53,111 bases of DNA from Gammaproteobacteria bacterium. GTDB lineage: Bacteria > Pseudomonadota > Gammaproteobacteria > Eutrophobiales > Eutrophobiaceae. Numbering within the stretch: position 1 is the first letter of the stretch; each line of letters starts with the position of its first letter. This document shows positions 7,181 to 47,600 of the stretch, piece by piece. The translations under genes were made by a program, and so were the position numbers. The stretch covers positions 1 through 53,111 of the forward strand of contig JAJFKK010000089.1 in the NCBI GenBank assembly GCA_021773245.1, written 5' to 3'. The notes below the pieces were generated by a model. It made no database searches and was not told the DNA's origin. It was given only the letters and a program-made list of their open reading frames with translations.

Positions 7181-7900
7181 ATGGCTAAGTTAGTTCTAAG
7201 TATGAATGGTGTCGTTCAAGGTGAATATGAACTCAATCAGGAGCGATTGACCATTGGACGAAAACCTGACAATGACATTCCAATTGATAACCTTGCGGTT
7301 AGTGGTAAACACGCACTGGTTATAACAATACTCGACGATTCATTTCTGGAAGATCTTGGTAGTACCAATGGTAGCTATGTAAACGGAAAACTCGTTAAAA
7401 AACATGCGCTTAAAGATGGCGATGTGATTGCTATCGGTAAGCATGAGCTGAAGTATGTCAATGAACATGCAACAGCTGATGATGATGACTTTGAAAAAAC
7501 CATGATCATTAGACCGGGCTCAGCTAGTGCCGCAGTCGCTGCAGCGCAAGCTGCTGAAAAAGCTGTTCAATCAGCGGCTCCAGCCGCAGGTACAGCTGCT
7601 CCTGCAGCTGCTGCTGGTGGCGGAATGCCATTAGCTCGTTTGACTGTATTAAATGGCCCAATTGCAGGTAAAGAATTAGAACTAACCAAAGCACTCATTA
7701 CTTTAGGTAAACCGGGTACTCAAGTTGCGGTTATTTCACGTCGTCCTCAAGGCTATTTTCTGACTCATATTGAGAGTGATGGTGACGGAAAACGTTATCC
7801 TGTTGTTAATGGTGAAGCCATTGGTGCGAAAGCTTATCAATTAAAAGATAGCGATCTGATTGAGTTAGCGGGTATTAAAATGGAGTTCTCTACTAACTAA
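7181..7900 (+). CDS. FHA domain protein with degenerate second FHA-like domain
   Basis: A 239-residue cytoplasmic protein, probably the phosphothreonine-reading partner of the kinase. The first FHA domain (about 3-95) keeps the conserved GR (26-27), SGKH (41-44), STNG (61-64) and VNG residues. It is followed by an acidic patch with FEKTM, where T107 is a candidate kinase target, then an alanine/proline-rich linker (about 113-149). The C-terminal part (about 150-239) resembles another FHA fold (TLGKPG, ISRRPQGYFLTHIE, VNGEAIG, DSDLIELAGIKMEF) but lacks the canonical GR and SxxH. Last gene of the kinase operon, with a terminator after it. Confidence 0.88.
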   Translation: MAKLVLSMNGVVQGEYELNQERLTIGRKPDNDIPIDNLAVSGKHALVITILDDSFLEDLGSTNGSYVNGKLVKKHALKDGDVIAIGKHELKYVNEHATADDDDFEKTMIIRPGSASAAVAAAQAAEKAVQSAAPAAGTAAPAAAAGGGMPLARLTVLNGPIAGKELELTKALITLGKPGTQVAVISRRPQGYFLTHIESDGDGKRYPVVNGEAIGAKAYQLKDSDLIELAGIKMEFSTN

Positions 7901-7912
7901 AAAGTTATAAAT

Positions 7913-7938
7913 ACAGGGTATGTTAATTACCCTGTTTT
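7913..7938 (+). terminator. Terminator after the kinase-phosphatase-FHA operon
   Basis: The 8-bp inverted repeat ACAGGGTA (7913-7920) and TACCCTGT (7928-7935) has a 7-base loop and runs into TTTT. It begins 12 bases after the FHA stop codon. Its position ends the plus-strand operon, and it also lies just beyond the end of the small reverse-strand ORF at 7946. Confidence 0.75.
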
Positions 7939-7945
7939 AACTTAA

Positions 7946-8137
7946 CTATTTAGTAGTATGTGTAAACACACCATCCCAATCTTCTGATGGTGGCTCAATT
8001 ATATAACTGTCAATACGATCAAGATAAACCTCATAAACTTTTCTATTAGCATAAGACTCTTTCAAAAAATTGAATTTACTTTTTGCTTGTTTACAATCTT
8101 GATTATGGGTAAGCACTCTCTTTTTACCCATCGTCAC
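7946..8137 (-). pseudogene. Orphan copy of an adenylate-cyclase C-terminal tail
   Basis: A short reverse-strand frame (63 codons from a GTG at 8137, or 61 from the ATG at 8131). Its last 34 residues match the extreme C-terminus of the cyclase encoded on the other strand at 8157-10496. VYEVYLDRIDSYIIEPPS corresponds to IYNIYIERCEHYIEEPPG, and DWDGVFTHTTK to DFNGVFVHKTK. The first half looks like the preceding TPR-type helices. No catalytic domain accompanies it; an in-frame stop closes the frame about 40 bases upstream of the GTG, inside the cyclase gene. No convincing ribosome-binding site was seen. It is most likely the remnant of a former second cyclase gene in opposite orientation. A small expressed tail protein is the alternative. 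Confidence 0.55.
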
Positions 8138-8156
8138 ATTAAACTCAGGAGCTAAT

Positions 8157-10496
8157 GTGAAAAAGTTCTTTATCTATTTCGGTCTAGGGCTCATTGTTGC
8201 AGCAACAGTCATTTCCATATACGTCTTTATCCCATCACAATTTGAAGTCTTTGATAACAGACTTCGAGACATGCTCTTCATTAATCGTGGCACCATTGAG
8301 CATACTGAACAGGTTGTAATTATCGATATTGATGAGCGTTCACTCAAAGAAATTGGGCAGTTTCCATGGAAACGTAACGATGTTGCTAAAATGGTTATTA
8401 ATTTAAGTGAAGCTGGGGTTAGTGCCATTGGCTTCGATATCATGTTTCCAGAACCTGATAAATCATCTCCGCATCGTGTTATTTCTGAGCTTGGTATCGC
8501 AGATATCGTGCCCGAGGATAAACAAATTAACTATGATGAACTGTTGGCTGATGCAGTAGCGAAAACACCGACCATCCTTGCTTACACGTTTGATTTTGAT
8601 GAGAAAGAAATTTATAAGAACAAAGAGGCGCCAAAAATCCCGGCAACCTTTATCAAAAGAAACAAGGGGGAACAAGAATATCTCCGAGAAGCTGATGGAG
8701 TCATCACCAATATTCCAATAATACAGAATGCCTCTCGTACGAGTGGTTTCATAAACGTCTGGCCTGATAGCGATGGCGTAATCCGCTCTGTCCCACTTGC
8801 AGTTACATATAATTCTAAAGTATACCCATCTCTTGCATTGGAACTTGTACGCATGGTGTCCCAAGAAAAAAGTATTACGGTCAATTATGATGAATTGGGA
8901 GTGACCTCAATTAGTCTTGCTGAACTCGATATACCAACTGATATACAAGGACAAATTGCAGTTAATTACAGAGGTCCGTCTTCTACCTTTGATTACATCT
9001 CAGCCGCAGATATCATCAAAGAAGACTTCGACCCAGCTGATATAAAAAACAAGATTGTACTTATTGGCACTTCAGCAGCGGGGCTTCTTGATTTAAGAAG
9101 CATGCCTTTTGATTCAATTTACCCGGGAGTGGAAGCACATGCGAATGTAATAGACAATATCATTGAGGGTGATTTTATTCATAGACCCGCTCTTGTCGCT
9201 GGTATTGATACAGTCCTCATTCTGCTTCTAGCAATTTTTATTGTCATGGCTATTGGCTACAGTAGCGCGTTAGTTTTCCCTTTTATCATTGCGATTACCG
9301 CATTTTTGCTGCTTTACTTCATTAACTATTTACTTTTTACTGAAGGGATTATTATTAGCATTTTCTATCCCCTCTTTACTTTGATCTTTGCTGCTTTAGC
9401 ATCAATTATTACGGGCTATTTCTTTGAAACCAGGCAAAAAAATCTTATCAGAGGTAAGTTTGCTTCTAAAGTTTCTCCGCAAGTCATGGAAGACATCATC
9501 AAAAATGCCGCTAATGGCGAGGATGCTTTTATCGCCAAAGAACATGAAATTGCCGTTACATTCTCTGATGTTCGTAACTTCACTAATATTTCTGAAGCAG
9601 CGGGTGATGCGAATACATTGATTCAGTTTTTAAATCAATATATGGACGACATGACAAAAATCATCACAAAGTATGAAGGAACAGTCGATAAATTTATTGG
9701 TGATGCAATCATGTCATACTGGAATGCCCCTGCAGTTGTAAAAGACTACGTAGAGAAGTCAGTTGATGCAACACTGGACCAAATACATGCTGTCGCACCT
9801 CTAAATGTCATAGTTAAAGAAGATGAGCGTTTTACTAATATCTGCAAAATGTCAGAAAGGATGGGCGTTGAGCCAATTGAAATTGGCATAGGTATCAACA
9901 TAGGTGTAGCAACAGTTGGCGAAATGGGTAGCAGTGGACGAAGTGACTACACGGTAATCGGCGACCCTATTAATTTGGGCGCACGCCTTGAAGCGCTATG
10001 TAAGTATTACAACTCCATGTGTAACATATCTAATCATGTCAAAGAAAAAATTCCACAAGATAAATATATTTTTCGGTTTCTGGATCTGGTTACTGTTAAA
10101 GGACAGTCTATTCCTGTTGAGATATGGCAAATAGTCGATTATGCAGATCTATCTAAGACCCAATGGGATACGCCACTCTATTTGGCACGAGCAGTTTCAT
10201 ATGATGTAGATGCTGCAGGTAATACGGCTATCTTGAGTTCTGATGGCGATACAAGTGGTGCGGTAGAAAAACAACGACTATTGGATGAGTTGGAATATTA
10301 CAATAGTGGCATCAAGGCTTATAAAGAAGCAAGGTTTGAAGATGCATTAAAAATCTTCAGGGATATTCAGGACAACTGGCCTGACAAGACTAATAAAAAT
10401 ATCTACAACATCTATATTGAGCGATGTGAACACTATATTGAAGAGCCTCCTGGTGACGACTTTAATGGCGTCTTCGTACATAAAACAAAGGGTTAG
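8157..10496 (+). CDS. CHASE2-domain class III adenylate cyclase
   Basis: A 779-residue membrane cyclase making cAMP. It has an N-terminal helix (about 5-27), a periplasmic CHASE2 sensor (about 30-345), three helices (about 350-425) and a class III cyclase domain (about 460-660). Metal-binding D471 (TFSDVRNFT) and D516 (KFIGDAIMSYW) are present. So are the ATP-selecting K512 and D597 (SDYTVIGD) and the transition-state residues N606 and R610. A TPR-like tail ends with EPPGDDFNGVF. The start is GTG at 8157, supported by AGGAG at 8147-8151. The end overlaps the convergent STAS gene by four bases. The sensor matches that of the kinase upstream in layout. Confidence 0.94.
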   Translation: MKKFFIYFGLGLIVAATVISIYVFIPSQFEVFDNRLRDMLFINRGTIEHTEQVVIIDIDERSLKEIGQFPWKRNDVAKMVINLSEAGVSAIGFDIMFPEPDKSSPHRVISELGIADIVPEDKQINYDELLADAVAKTPTILAYTFDFDEKEIYKNKEAPKIPATFIKRNKGEQEYLREADGVITNIPIIQNASRTSGFINVWPDSDGVIRSVPLAVTYNSKVYPSLALELVRMVSQEKSITVNYDELGVTSISLAELDIPTDIQGQIAVNYRGPSSTFDYISAADIIKEDFDPADIKNKIVLIGTSAAGLLDLRSMPFDSIYPGVEAHANVIDNIIEGDFIHRPALVAGIDTVLILLLAIFIVMAIGYSSALVFPFIIAITAFLLLYFINYLLFTEGIIISIFYPLFTLIFAALASIITGYFFETRQKNLIRGKFASKVSPQVMEDIIKNAANGEDAFIAKEHEIAVTFSDVRNFTNISEAAGDANTLIQFLNQYMDDMTKIITKYEGTVDKFIGDAIMSYWNAPAVVKDYVEKSVDATLDQIHAVAPLNVIVKEDERFTNICKMSERMGVEPIEIGIGINIGVATVGEMGSSGRSDYTVIGDPINLGARLEALCKYYNSMCNISNHVKEKIPQDKYIFRFLDLVTVKGQSIPVEIWQIVDYADLSKTQWDTPLYLARAVSYDVDAAGNTAILSSDGDTSGAVEKQRLLDELEYYNSGIKAYKEARFEDALKIFRDIQDNWPDKTNKNIYNIYIERCEHYIEEPPGDDFNGVFVHKTKG

Positions 10497-10825
10497 TCAT
10501 CCTTTTTTTCATACTCTTCTAGGGAATCAAAAATCGGAAAAACTTGATCTAGTCTTGCCAATTTCAAAACACTCATTGCGGCATCACTGACACCGACTAA
10601 TCCAAATTGCAAAGACTGTTTTTTAGCTGTCTGATAACCTTCAACCAAACTAGCAACACCAGAGCTATCAATATAACTAACCTTACCAAGATCGATAAGT
10701 AGAGATTTATCTTTTTCTAATACACTAAGAATACTCTGTCTTGCATCCGGTGAGCATGACAAATCAACCTCACCTTCCAGTTCAATAATTGTGTATTTTT
10801 CCTTGTCCTCTGTATTGATATTCAT
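10493..10825 (-). CDS. STAS domain anti-sigma factor antagonist (RsbV/SpoIIAA-like)
   Basis: A 110-residue single STAS domain. The conserved SYIDSSGVASL contains S54, which aligns with the serine phosphorylated in SpoIIAA and RsbV. In the family, the unphosphorylated form binds the HATPase kinase and frees its target, and a SpoIIE-type phosphatase regenerates it. Both partners are encoded immediately upstream on the same strand. It shares four bases with the convergent cyclase gene, so there is no room for a terminator between them. Confidence 0.9.
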   Translation of the reverse strand: MNINTEDKEKYTIIELEGEVDLSCSPDARQSILSVLEKDKSLLIDLGKVSYIDSSGVASLVEGYQTAKKQSLQFGLVGVSDAAMSVLKLARLDQVFPIFDSLEEYEKKDD

Positions 10826-43825: not shown

Positions 43826-46800
43826 CTACACTTGTCCCAACAAGTCTTCCGCTTGCTTACGTTGTTCATCGTTACCTTCAGCCATCACTTCATCCAAAAT
43901 AGTTTTGGCACTATCCTTATCGCCTAACTCTACATAAGCTTTAGCAAGGTCTAATTTTGTAGCAATTTCATCTTCAGCTGTCTGCTCTTCTGGTTGAGCA
44001 GCTCTTGGAACAAACACTGTGTGATCATCATCATCGTCGTCAGCTTCTTCTGTAGCAGCAGTAAGCGCACTTTTTGGCAGCTCAACTGTACCATCAAGAT
44101 CAAAGTCTGCTTCTTCTGGTGTTTCTTCATCTAGACTAAAATCAAAATCAATTTCTGGCGCATCTGAGGCTACTTCAGCCTGAGCCTGAGGTTCATCATC
44201 TTCTTCAATTGAAAGATCCAGTTCAATACCACCTTCTTCTTCACCCATATCAAGATCAAGAGATTCCTCACCTTCATCACTGGTCGTTTCTTCAGCACCA
44301 ATATCCAATGAAATATCATCAACATTGCTAGAATCTTCTTCTGTATCGATATCGAGCGAAAATTCAGCCTCTGATGACTCATCTTCTATATCAAGTCTAA
44401 TAGGCTCATCTTCTTCCGCATCATCAGAAGTTGTATCTAGTTCAATTTCTAATCCGGCATCCTCAGTTTCAGAGGATTCGTCACCACTGGTATCAAATTC
44501 AATATCATTACTACCATCTGAACCCATATCAAACTCGAGGACATTATCATCTTCGGAACTATCCACTGATTGCTCTGCTTCATCAGTACCTAAATCAAAT
44601 TCTACTGTCTCATTACTCTCAACGGGCATATCAAATTCGATCTCATTCGAATCTCCTGCATCTGCGTCTGTCGCATTATTAGAATCTAATTCAATACCAT
44701 CGGGTTCTAAATCGAGCAAATCAGAACTATCTGCTCCTGCACTTGTTGCAGCAGTTACATCGAGTAGGTCTTCTTCTGAATCCAAGTCAAGATTTGCTGC
44801 CGCAGTCACATCTAATAAATCTTCGCCGGAAGATTCTTCGCCCGATGTAAGGTCAAGTAGATCGTCACCACTCGCACCAGAAATATCCAAGATATCGTCA
44901 GAACTAGTCGGCTGAGCAGTTTCAGCTTCAGAATCTATGGCTTCATCAAGTCCTACTGCAGCAGTAACATCAAGCAGATCTTCAGCCTCACTCGATCCTG
45001 TGACATCAAGCATTTCTTCATCATTTGAGCCAGTAATATCAAGCATGCCTTCTTCCATACTTGATGTTTCCTCAACAGCAGGCGCTTCTTCAGCACCGCC
45101 AATATCAAAATCTAAATCAGCATTACTATCGCCAGCTTCTTCATCAGCAGTTACGTTAACAAATCCACCTGTGTTATCAGCAGCATCGTCTTCATCTTCA
45201 TCTTCACCACCAGCTTCAAATAATGCGCGATTAGGTGACATCTCCTGCCACATAGCTGTCGCCATATTCCAGTGTTCACCTTCACCGCCAACCAGATCAT
45301 GAAGTATTTTTGCAGATTCTTCATAACTCTTTTTATTTCCGGAAGTATAAAAAACTTCTAATAACTTAGTATGATATTCAGGATTGTCTGGTGAATCATT
45401 TATTACATTTCGGACAAACTCTTCAGCTTGATCAAACTGTTCAAAGGCGAGATATGTATTAACTTCTTGCAAAGGATCCTCTTCTTCCTCTACTTCTTCC
45501 TCTACTTCTTCTTCAACAACAGGTGACTCTTCAACTGCCATAAATTGAGTTTTTGCATCATCTTCTTCTTGAAGATCTAGATCTACTGATTCTTCAGGCA
45601 AGGCTGTTTCAGCTTCTGAGTCTGGTAAAATTGTTACCGCTTCTGAATCAGGCACACCTTCTCCGGTGTCTCCCAAATCACCTGAATCAAAATCAGGAAA
45701 TGCTTCTTCTGTCATTGCATCAATATGAACCGTTTCAGCCGGTTCTTTTCTAAACTTTAAGACAACAACAATAATAATTAATAGAAGAATAAATCCAGCT
45801 ACAGCCATACCAATCATAGGATTGCCAAGAACCAAATCTTTAGCTTTAGCTATGTATTGGTTTACCATTCCCATAACTCCGTCAGAGCTTGATTCTGGTT
45901 CGGTTTTAATCACTTCCATCATTTCTTCTTCGGCTTCGGCAACTTCTTCTTCAACCTCTACCATCATTTCTTCTTCAGCCAAATCAGCAGCTGCCTGAGC
46001 TGATGCCATTTGTTCTTGTAGTGCAGCTAATTCGTCATCTTTTAGAGATAACAAACGTTTCAGATCTTCAAGTAGTGCATCTGATTCTTGCACTCGATCC
46101 TTAAGCTCGATATTTTCTTGAGTTAATACTTGAATAGTTTCTTGGGCCAAGACTAATTCTTCGCCAGAACCCGATTCAACACTTGAGACTTGATCTGTTG
46201 CTTCACCTGCATCATCCGCAGACACCAGTTTTAATTCAGCTTCAGAGACAACTTCTTCTGAGGTCGTATCAACTTGTTCTTCAACAACAGTAGGACTTGT
46301 TTCAGATACAGAGCTAACTTCCGGACGTTCACTAACCGCACTGGAGAGATTTTCTCTAATATCTCCCCATGCGCTATATTGTGATTGTGCTTCAGCTAAT
46401 GCTTCAGCATTGGAAAGCGCATTAATTTCATTTTCACTCGGCGCACGTAGAATTTGGCCTCGCTTCAAACCATTTATATTTTGATTAATGAATGCATCTG
46501 GATTTGCTCTCAACAAAGCCATCATCATTTTGTTAACACTAATAGAGTTATCAGGCCGCATTTCTGATGCAATAGACCATAAGGTATCTGCTCCTGTAGT
46601 AGGTCCATAATCACCATCGGTGTAATTTACATTAGGTGTATATGTAGCAGCAGGGCTAGGCGCAGTAGAACTTGATTTAGCAAACTGCTCGTAAGCTTCC
46701 CCATAAACAACTTGATGGTCAGGATCATCTAGAGTAACTACTTCTGATGAACTATCACTTGCAGTTACTTGAGCAAATTCGGTTTTACGTGCATTTGGAT

Positions 46801-47194
46801 CATATAAAGGCGGATCGAGTAAGACAGTATATTCGCGGAACAAACGGCCATTAGACCAACTTACTTCTACTAGAAAATTTAAAAATGGCTCTCGGATTGG
46901 ATCTTGACTATAAACTCGTATGTAATCAGGGCCATCATCAACCGAGCGTCTTAAATCAAACCTCAGTTTGCTTAGAATAAAAGGACGATCAACTTTTGCT
47001 CGAGCAAAAGCTTCATTATCTGCTAAATTAATTTTTAGAGAATCTAATTCATCGGCTGTAGGTGAAAGCAATTGAATTCTTGCGTCAAACGGCTCATTCA
47101 ATGCTGAATTTAAATCAAGTGTACCTAAACCAAACGCATTAACTAATGTTGGAGTTAAAGCTAATAAAATGACAATATAAAATATACGTTTCAT
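43826..47194 (-). CDS. fimV: FimV-family polar/type IV pilus assembly protein
   Basis: Inner-membrane scaffold of about 1122 residues. It has a signal peptide (MKRIFYIVILLALTPTLVNA) and a FimV N-terminal domain (FGLGTLDLNSALNEPFDARI through FREYTVLLDPP, about 21-130). A LysM-like peptidoglycan-binding region follows (about 195-260, with DTLWSIASEMRP), then a coiled coil (about 345-415) and one membrane helix (about 460-482). The cytoplasmic part is very acidic and ends in a TPR-like FimV C-terminal motif (AKAYVELGDKDSAKTILDEV). ATG at 47194 is chosen because it opens the signal peptide; the frame extends 14 codons further up. Eight LDVT-type repeats lie in the acidic part. Confidence 0.93.
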   Translation of the reverse strand: MKRIFYIVILLALTPTLVNAFGLGTLDLNSALNEPFDARIQLLSPTADELDSLKINLADNEAFARAKVDRPFILSKLRFDLRRSVDDGPDYIRVYSQDPIREPFLNFLVEVSWSNGRLFREYTVLLDPPLYDPNARKTEFAQVTASDSSSEVVTLDDPDHQVVYGEAYEQFAKSSSTAPSPAATYTPNVNYTDGDYGPTTGADTLWSIASEMRPDNSISVNKMMMALLRANPDAFINQNINGLKRGQILRAPSENEINALSNAEALAEAQSQYSAWGDIRENLSSAVSERPEVSSVSETSPTVVEEQVDTTSEEVVSEAELKLVSADDAGEATDQVSSVESGSGEELVLAQETIQVLTQENIELKDRVQESDALLEDLKRLLSLKDDELAALQEQMASAQAAADLAEEEMMVEVEEEVAEAEEEMMEVIKTEPESSSDGVMGMVNQYIAKAKDLVLGNPMIGMAVAGFILLLIIIVVVLKFRKEPAETVHIDAMTEEAFPDFDSGDLGDTGEGVPDSEAVTILPDSEAETALPEESVDLDLQEEDDAKTQFMAVEESPVVEEEVEEEVEEEEDPLQEVNTYLAFEQFDQAEEFVRNVINDSPDNPEYHTKLLEVFYTSGNKKSYEESAKILHDLVGGEGEHWNMATAMWQEMSPNRALFEAGGEDEDEDDAADNTGGFVNVTADEEAGDSNADLDFDIGGAEEAPAVEETSSMEEGMLDITGSNDEEMLDVTGSSEAEDLLDVTAAVGLDEAIDSEAETAQPTSSDDILDISGASGDDLLDLTSGEESSGEDLLDVTAAANLDLDSEEDLLDVTAATSAGADSSDLLDLEPDGIELDSNNATDADAGDSNEIEFDMPVESNETVEFDLGTDEAEQSVDSSEDDNVLEFDMGSDGSNDIEFDTSGDESSETEDAGLEIELDTTSDDAEEDEPIRLDIEDESSEAEFSLDIDTEEDSSNVDDISLDIGAEETTSDEGEESLDLDMGEEEGGIELDLSIEEDDEPQAQAEVASDAPEIDFDFSLDEETPEEADFDLDGTVELPKSALTAATEEADDDDDDHTVFVPRAAQPEEQTAEDEIATKLDLAKAYVELGDKDSAKTILDEVMAEGNDEQRKQAEDLLGQV
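44700..45055 (-). repeat. LDVT-type peptide repeats within fimV
   Basis: This part of fimV encodes eight copies of a short motif of form (E/D/G)(L/M/I)LD(V/I/L)(T/S/E). In protein order: GMLDITGS, EMLDVTGS, DLLDVTAA, DILDISGA, DLLDLTSG, DLLDVTAA, DLLDVTAA, DLLDLEPD. Spacers are short, acidic and of irregular length. The array sits in the cytoplasmic acidic region after the membrane helix. Confidence 0.85.
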
Positions 47195-47216
47195 TGTTAC
47201 TTCTTGTTCCTTGAAT

Positions 47217-47600
47217 TCAATTTCGTGGTGGGTCAATTAAAAATGAATATTCACGTACAACATGGCCATCAGACCAGCCAAGATCCAATGTAAACTCTAC
47301 AATTGGTTCTCGTATCACATCATGCGTTGTAATTTTGAGAAAATTACCCCCATCAGTCTTTATAACTTCGTATTTCAACTGATAGCGTGAAACGTTATTT
47401 TTCGCTGAATAACTTAATGAAACTTTAAGATCATCAAGTTCAGCAACTTGATCCGTCAAGAGCTCAATTCTAACATCAAGCTGTTGATTTAAATGAGATT
47501 TTAACTCAGCTTCAGACAATGCAAGTGCATAGCTTGTTGAGGCATAAAACCCCAAGCTAACCACCGCTGCCAACTTAAATAATATTTTGTAGGTATTCAT
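47217..47600 (-). CDS. Stand-alone FimV N-terminal-domain protein
   Basis: A 127-residue protein with a signal peptide (about 1-25, ending SYA) and a single domain clearly related to the N-terminus of FimV encoded 22 bases downstream. LDVRIELLTDQVAELDDLKV corresponds to FDARIQLLSPTADELDSLKI. IREPIVEFTLDLGWSDG matches IREPFLNFLVEVSWSNG, and VREYSFLIDPP matches FREYTVLLDPP. It stops there, so it lacks LysM, membrane helix and TPR parts and should be a free periplasmic protein. It looks like a diverged tandem partial duplication. A role in modulating FimV is inference. Confidence 0.82.
   Translation of the reverse strand: MNTYKILFKLAAVVSLGFYASTSYALALSEAELKSHLNQQLDVRIELLTDQVAELDDLKVSLSYSAKNNVSRYQLKYEVIKTDGGNFLKITTHDVIREPIVEFTLDLGWSDGHVVREYSFLIDPPRN

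Follow-up and report, generated by a model that had tools for sequence, protein, structure and literature searches.

A 63-codon open reading frame beside a CHASE2 cyclase gene is very probably the remnant of a second, replaced cyclase

The locus described here raises the question whether a short open frame that ends like a cyclase, located next to a complete cyclase gene, encodes a small protein or is the relict of another gene. The window, i.e. the whole stretch of DNA that was analysed, is a single MAG contig with a length of 53,111 nucleotides. It harbors the gene cyc1 (8157-10496, plus strand), which codes for a protein of 779 amino acids with a CHASE2 domain and a class III adenylate/guanylate cyclase domain (Pfam CHASE2, 7e-63; Guanylate_cyc, 4e-14). 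On the minus strand we find a frame of 63 codons with a GTG start at 7946-8137, exactly as given in a preliminary description of this DNA.

In a single BLASTP comparison, residues 31-63 of the frame aligned with residues 746-778 of the cyc1 product (48% identity, E=8e-12). Moreover, a profile was built from 46 CYC2 tails, taken from related cyclases, and compared with all 1011 stop-to-stop frames of the window that span 25 codons or more. The preliminary description had named such a profile search as a check of the homology, and it returned the 63-codon frame beyond chance, with E=1.5e-21; cyc1 was matched by the same profile at E=2.7e-12, while the next-best frame reached only 0.84. It is thus beyond doubt that the homology of the frame to the C-terminal tails of CHASE2 cyclases, including their conserved motif, far exceeds chance. 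The preliminary description had recognized this homology and underestimated its extent as approximately 34 residues, as 53 residues align to the cyclase CYC2 of the related genome G017 (62% identity, E=3.2e-20). No CHASE2 or cyclase domain was matched when the 63 amino acids were compared with Pfam, and a search of NCBIfam gave no match. A Pfam hit to the nuclease inhibitor NuiA (PF07924) scored 17.7 bits against a gathering cut-off of 22.1 and was not found for the homologous tail of G017; it was therefore dismissed as chance.

Several lines of evidence indicate that the frame derives from the second cyclase gene CYC2 and that cyc1 is not its source. Over the last 159 nucleotides, the tail is 74% identical to CYC2 of G017 and 47% identical to cyc1. 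Hence, the preliminary description was right in calling the nucleotide similarity to the adjacent cyclase moderate, and it is only moderate because cyc1 is the wrong parent. In a tree built from the last 91 residues, the tail in the window, a remnant in the sister species G004 and CYC2 of G017 fall into one clade (97/92), whereas cyc1 and its orthologues form a separate one (100/100). The C-terminal motif is common to both cyclases, which could be taken to suggest that the tail arose from the neighbouring cyc1 by an inverted partial duplication. However, the position in the tree, the nucleotide identities and the presence of the parent at the same site in relatives leave this origin practically without probability, and it was rejected as refuted by tree and synteny. 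The assignment to CYC2 is likewise seen at the DNA level, where the sequence can be aligned to CYC2 of G017 at 7935-8086 and to the G004 remnant at 7957-8106. Based on amino acid identity, profile, tree and DNA alignment, the CYC2 remnant is delimited to 7946-8106 on the minus strand and comprises the last 53 codons and the stop codon.

The site itself is bordered on the left by a gene encoding an FHA domain (7181-7900, plus strand; Pfam FHA, 1e-20) and on the right by a STAS gene of the anti-sigma factor antagonist type (10493-10825, minus strand), both supported by synteny. In G017, the gene order is STK> PP2C> FHA> <CYC2 <STAS <RsbW <RsbU <orf <nth, and CYC2, encoding a full-length protein of 762 amino acids with CHASE2 and class III cyclase domains, meets the FHA gene tail to tail. 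The window shows the same order, with cyc1 on the opposite strand and the tail of 53 codons in the place of CYC2. An intact CYC2 homologue is present at this site in G017, G019, G013, G015 and G047, and the remnant is, as judged from sequence and synteny, orthologous to the full-length CYC2 of G017. Among 80 FHA loci taken from public genomes (L077-L156), 24 carry a convergent CYC2-type gene directly after the FHA gene, with the G004 remnant as the 25th; 17, more distant ones, carry a co-directional cyclase, 32 have no cyclase after FHA and 6 are too short to tell. The suggestion of the preliminary description that the frame may be what remains of an inverted second cyclase is thus borne out by the complete inverted cyclase at the same site in relatives and by the stop-broken remnant in G004.

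As a side observation, the occurrence of a cyclase after STK-PP2C-FHA in either orientation, or its absence, suggests repeated inversion, loss and regain at one locus. In addition, contig C20 of G009 (L038, 7249-12081) carries a CYC2-type cyclase and a CHASE2-STK gene tail to tail, away from PP2C-FHA (C19), and this kinase and cyclase look as if they had moved together.

The fate of CYC2 differs within the genus. In G004, a CYC2 remnant of 91 codons with TAA and TGA stops is found at the same site, and in G001, another sister species, CYC2 is gone, with 92 bp left between FHA and STAS. The broken remnant and the empty site point to a loss of CYC2 from the FHA-STAS site in several lineages of the genus. 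As both losses occurred without any insertion of cyc1 at the site, a variant of the history proposed below is conceivable, in which CYC2 first decayed alone and cyc1 dropped into the remnant later. The comparison of the tail in the window with the G004 remnant speaks against this order: a pN/pS of 0.20/0.58 suggests that selection acted on both during most of their separate history and that the window lineage lost the gene late. We regard the decay-first order as less likely than not.

How did cyc1 reach this site? The protein shares 31% identity with CYC2 of G017 and 93% with its counterpart in G003. When the window was compared with G003, the synonymous difference (pS) was 0.24 for cyc1 and 0.55-0.76 for the PP2C, FHA, STAS, RsbW, RsbU and nth genes. 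In G003, G004, G005, G007 and G009, cyc1 resides in another neighbourhood, close to cysQ, HAD and, in most of them, mutY, these neighbours being named from their sequence by eye. The low pS relative to the flanks together with the other locus elsewhere in the genus points to a recent arrival, such that cyc1 appears to have passed between lineages long after the divergence of the flanking genes, probably by lateral transfer within the genus. A second cyc1 was not found in the window's genome (G000), and its cysQ and mutY contigs are devoid of cyc1; both are contig-edge pieces that show the native site in part. Independently of this, contig C48 of G004 (L043, 2-154) starts with a cyc1 tail of 51 codons that is 96% identical to that of the window. 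The DNA past its stop differs from the full copy on C63, so that it represents either another copy of cyc1 or the edge of an assembly.

The junctions between the two genes can be traced as well. By local alignment, homology to cyc1 leaders covers 8104-8156 (plus strand) with G009 and 8105-8156 with G004. The evidence for this homology at the far end is moderate: when the last 20 bases are left out, 4 of 1000 shuffled sequences score as high. Since CYC2 homology ends at 8106, as determined with the G004 remnant, and leader homology starts at 8104-8105, the left junction lies at about 8104-8106. The open reading frame is consequently read as a chimera, in which the GTG and the first ~10 codons (MTMGKKRVLT) are antisense to the cyc1 leader and the rest is CYC2. 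At the right edge, the stop codons of cyc1 and STAS overlap (TTAG). The short letters shared at the edges, TAT and TTAG, would be compatible with recombination at microhomology, as judged from very few bases.

Given this structure, we considered what the remnant might still do. A stem-loop terminator with a perfect stem of 8 bp (z about -4 in both directions) is located at 7913-7935 between the FHA gene and the remnant, 10 bases from the stop codon of the latter, and in both G004 and G001 comparable stem-loops can be recognized by eye at the corresponding position. The FHA operon would need this terminator, and the tail may survive as its neighbour. The DNA of the remnant, rather than a protein, could moreover be used as promoter or upstream region of cyc1. 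In line with this idea, the native upstream element of cyc1, of the GTGGAATTAAGTATACATTTTA type and present in the leaders of G003-G009, is absent from the window, and a weak sigma-70-like site on the plus strand, directed towards cyc1 (TTGAAT-16-TACAAT, 9/12), lies within the remnant at 8070-8097 and might speculatively serve as a replacement promoter. As such sites are no more frequent in the region than expected by chance, we consider this reuse rather doubtful; it does not conflict with the main explanation and could hold alongside it.

The preliminary description had alternatively envisaged a small protein that competes with or modulates the cyclase tail, for which we obtained no positive support. 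Such a protein would be expressed, bind the tail of the cyclase or a partner of this tail, and thereby modulate cyc1. The 63 codons are indeed open, divergent to cyc1 and contain the tail motif, whose core (EPP..DWDGVFTHTTK) is fully kept, and the low dN/dS towards G017 (0.22/0.94) would also be expected of a functional tail. However, the start and the first 10 codons stem from DNA brought in by cyc1, no clear ribosome site was visible by eye, and the sole promoter-like site nearby on the minus strand is at chance level. Moreover, a W that is near-invariant in CYC2 tails (96%) is replaced by C in the window tail, as is a conserved E (91%) by K. The two stops in G004, a sister species, likewise speak against a functional gene, by the test of stops in sister strains that the preliminary description had set. 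In 58 related genomes, no stand-alone tail was found except for the broken copy in G004 and a cyc1 fragment at a contig edge, and none at the 80 FHA loci. We therefore judge an expressed modulator of cyc1 to be very unlikely. Slightly less probable still is its translation as a trans-acting decoy for binders of the C-terminal motif of CHASE2 cyclases; in that event, a regulator derived from the displaced cyclase would have been retained by the incoming one.

The dN/dS ratio was dropped as proof of function, since the stop-broken G004 copy shows the same low value (dN 0.28, dS saturated). Because the dead copy behaves alike, the low ratio of the tail seems only to reflect selection before inactivation. 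A Tajima relative-rate test for relaxed constraint relative to G017 gave mostly the expected direction, mostly without significance at 53 residues. Nor does the open frame require selection: if 4.9% of changes create a stop, 53 codons stay open with a probability of 0.31 at a neutral divergence of K=0.15 changes per site, a value of the order of the time allowed by the divergence between cyc1 and its G003 counterpart. The open frame is therefore compatible with recent decay.

Taken together, the frame is very probably a decaying remnant that was made by gene replacement. The relatives show the ancestral order [STK PP2C FHA]> <[CYC2] <[STAS RsbW RsbU ... nth], with a full-length CYC2 on the minus strand. 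A piece of ~2.4 kb, comprising cyc1 and about 50 bp of its leader, would then have entered in opposite orientation and, judged from the aligned junctions, replaced all of CYC2 except its last ~53 codons, reaching as far as the stop codon of STAS. What was left of CYC2 would be these codons, their stop and the terminator beside it. The 63-codon frame would be an accidental fusion of the antisense cyc1 leader, providing the start and ~10 codons, with the CYC2 tail, and may still be open because the time was too short for a stop to be fixed. Of the 762 residues of CYC2 in G017, 53 have a counterpart in the frame, and the essential domains are lost. The frame most likely makes no functional protein, and its DNA would now serve only as upstream region of cyc1.

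In terms of known systems, the tail is an ordinary gene remnant. Like bacterial pseudogenes and gene remnants (PMC522871), it is a fragment at the ancestral site of a gene that is intact in relatives; unlike these, it is still open and gained its start codon from the leader of the incoming gene. With the CHASE2 class III cyclases (PF05226 and PF00211) it shares the tail Y..YL.RI...PP..DWDGVFTH..K, which constitutes the last 53 residues of such cyclases at the FHA site in many gammaproteobacteria, whereas it is devoid of the CHASE2 domain, the membrane part and the catalytic domain. The event resembles an in-situ displacement by a distant homologue, as cyc1 now stands where the lost gene had been; it differs from it in that cyc1 came in opposite orientation and not via homologous flanks. 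In the literature searched, we found no paper on CHASE2 cyclases with pseudogenes or FHA. The locus appears to provide a clean example of one CHASE2 cyclase being exchanged in situ for a distant homologue that is oriented the other way, within a conserved signalling locus of Ser/Thr kinase, PP2C, FHA and RsbU/RsbW/STAS genes. That an accidental small frame with a convincing motif can arise in this way calls for caution in the annotation of small open reading frames.

Elsewhere in the window, the minus strand encodes at 43826-47236 a protein of 1136 amino acids that looks like a FimV-type protein and contains long acidic stretches rich in D and S.
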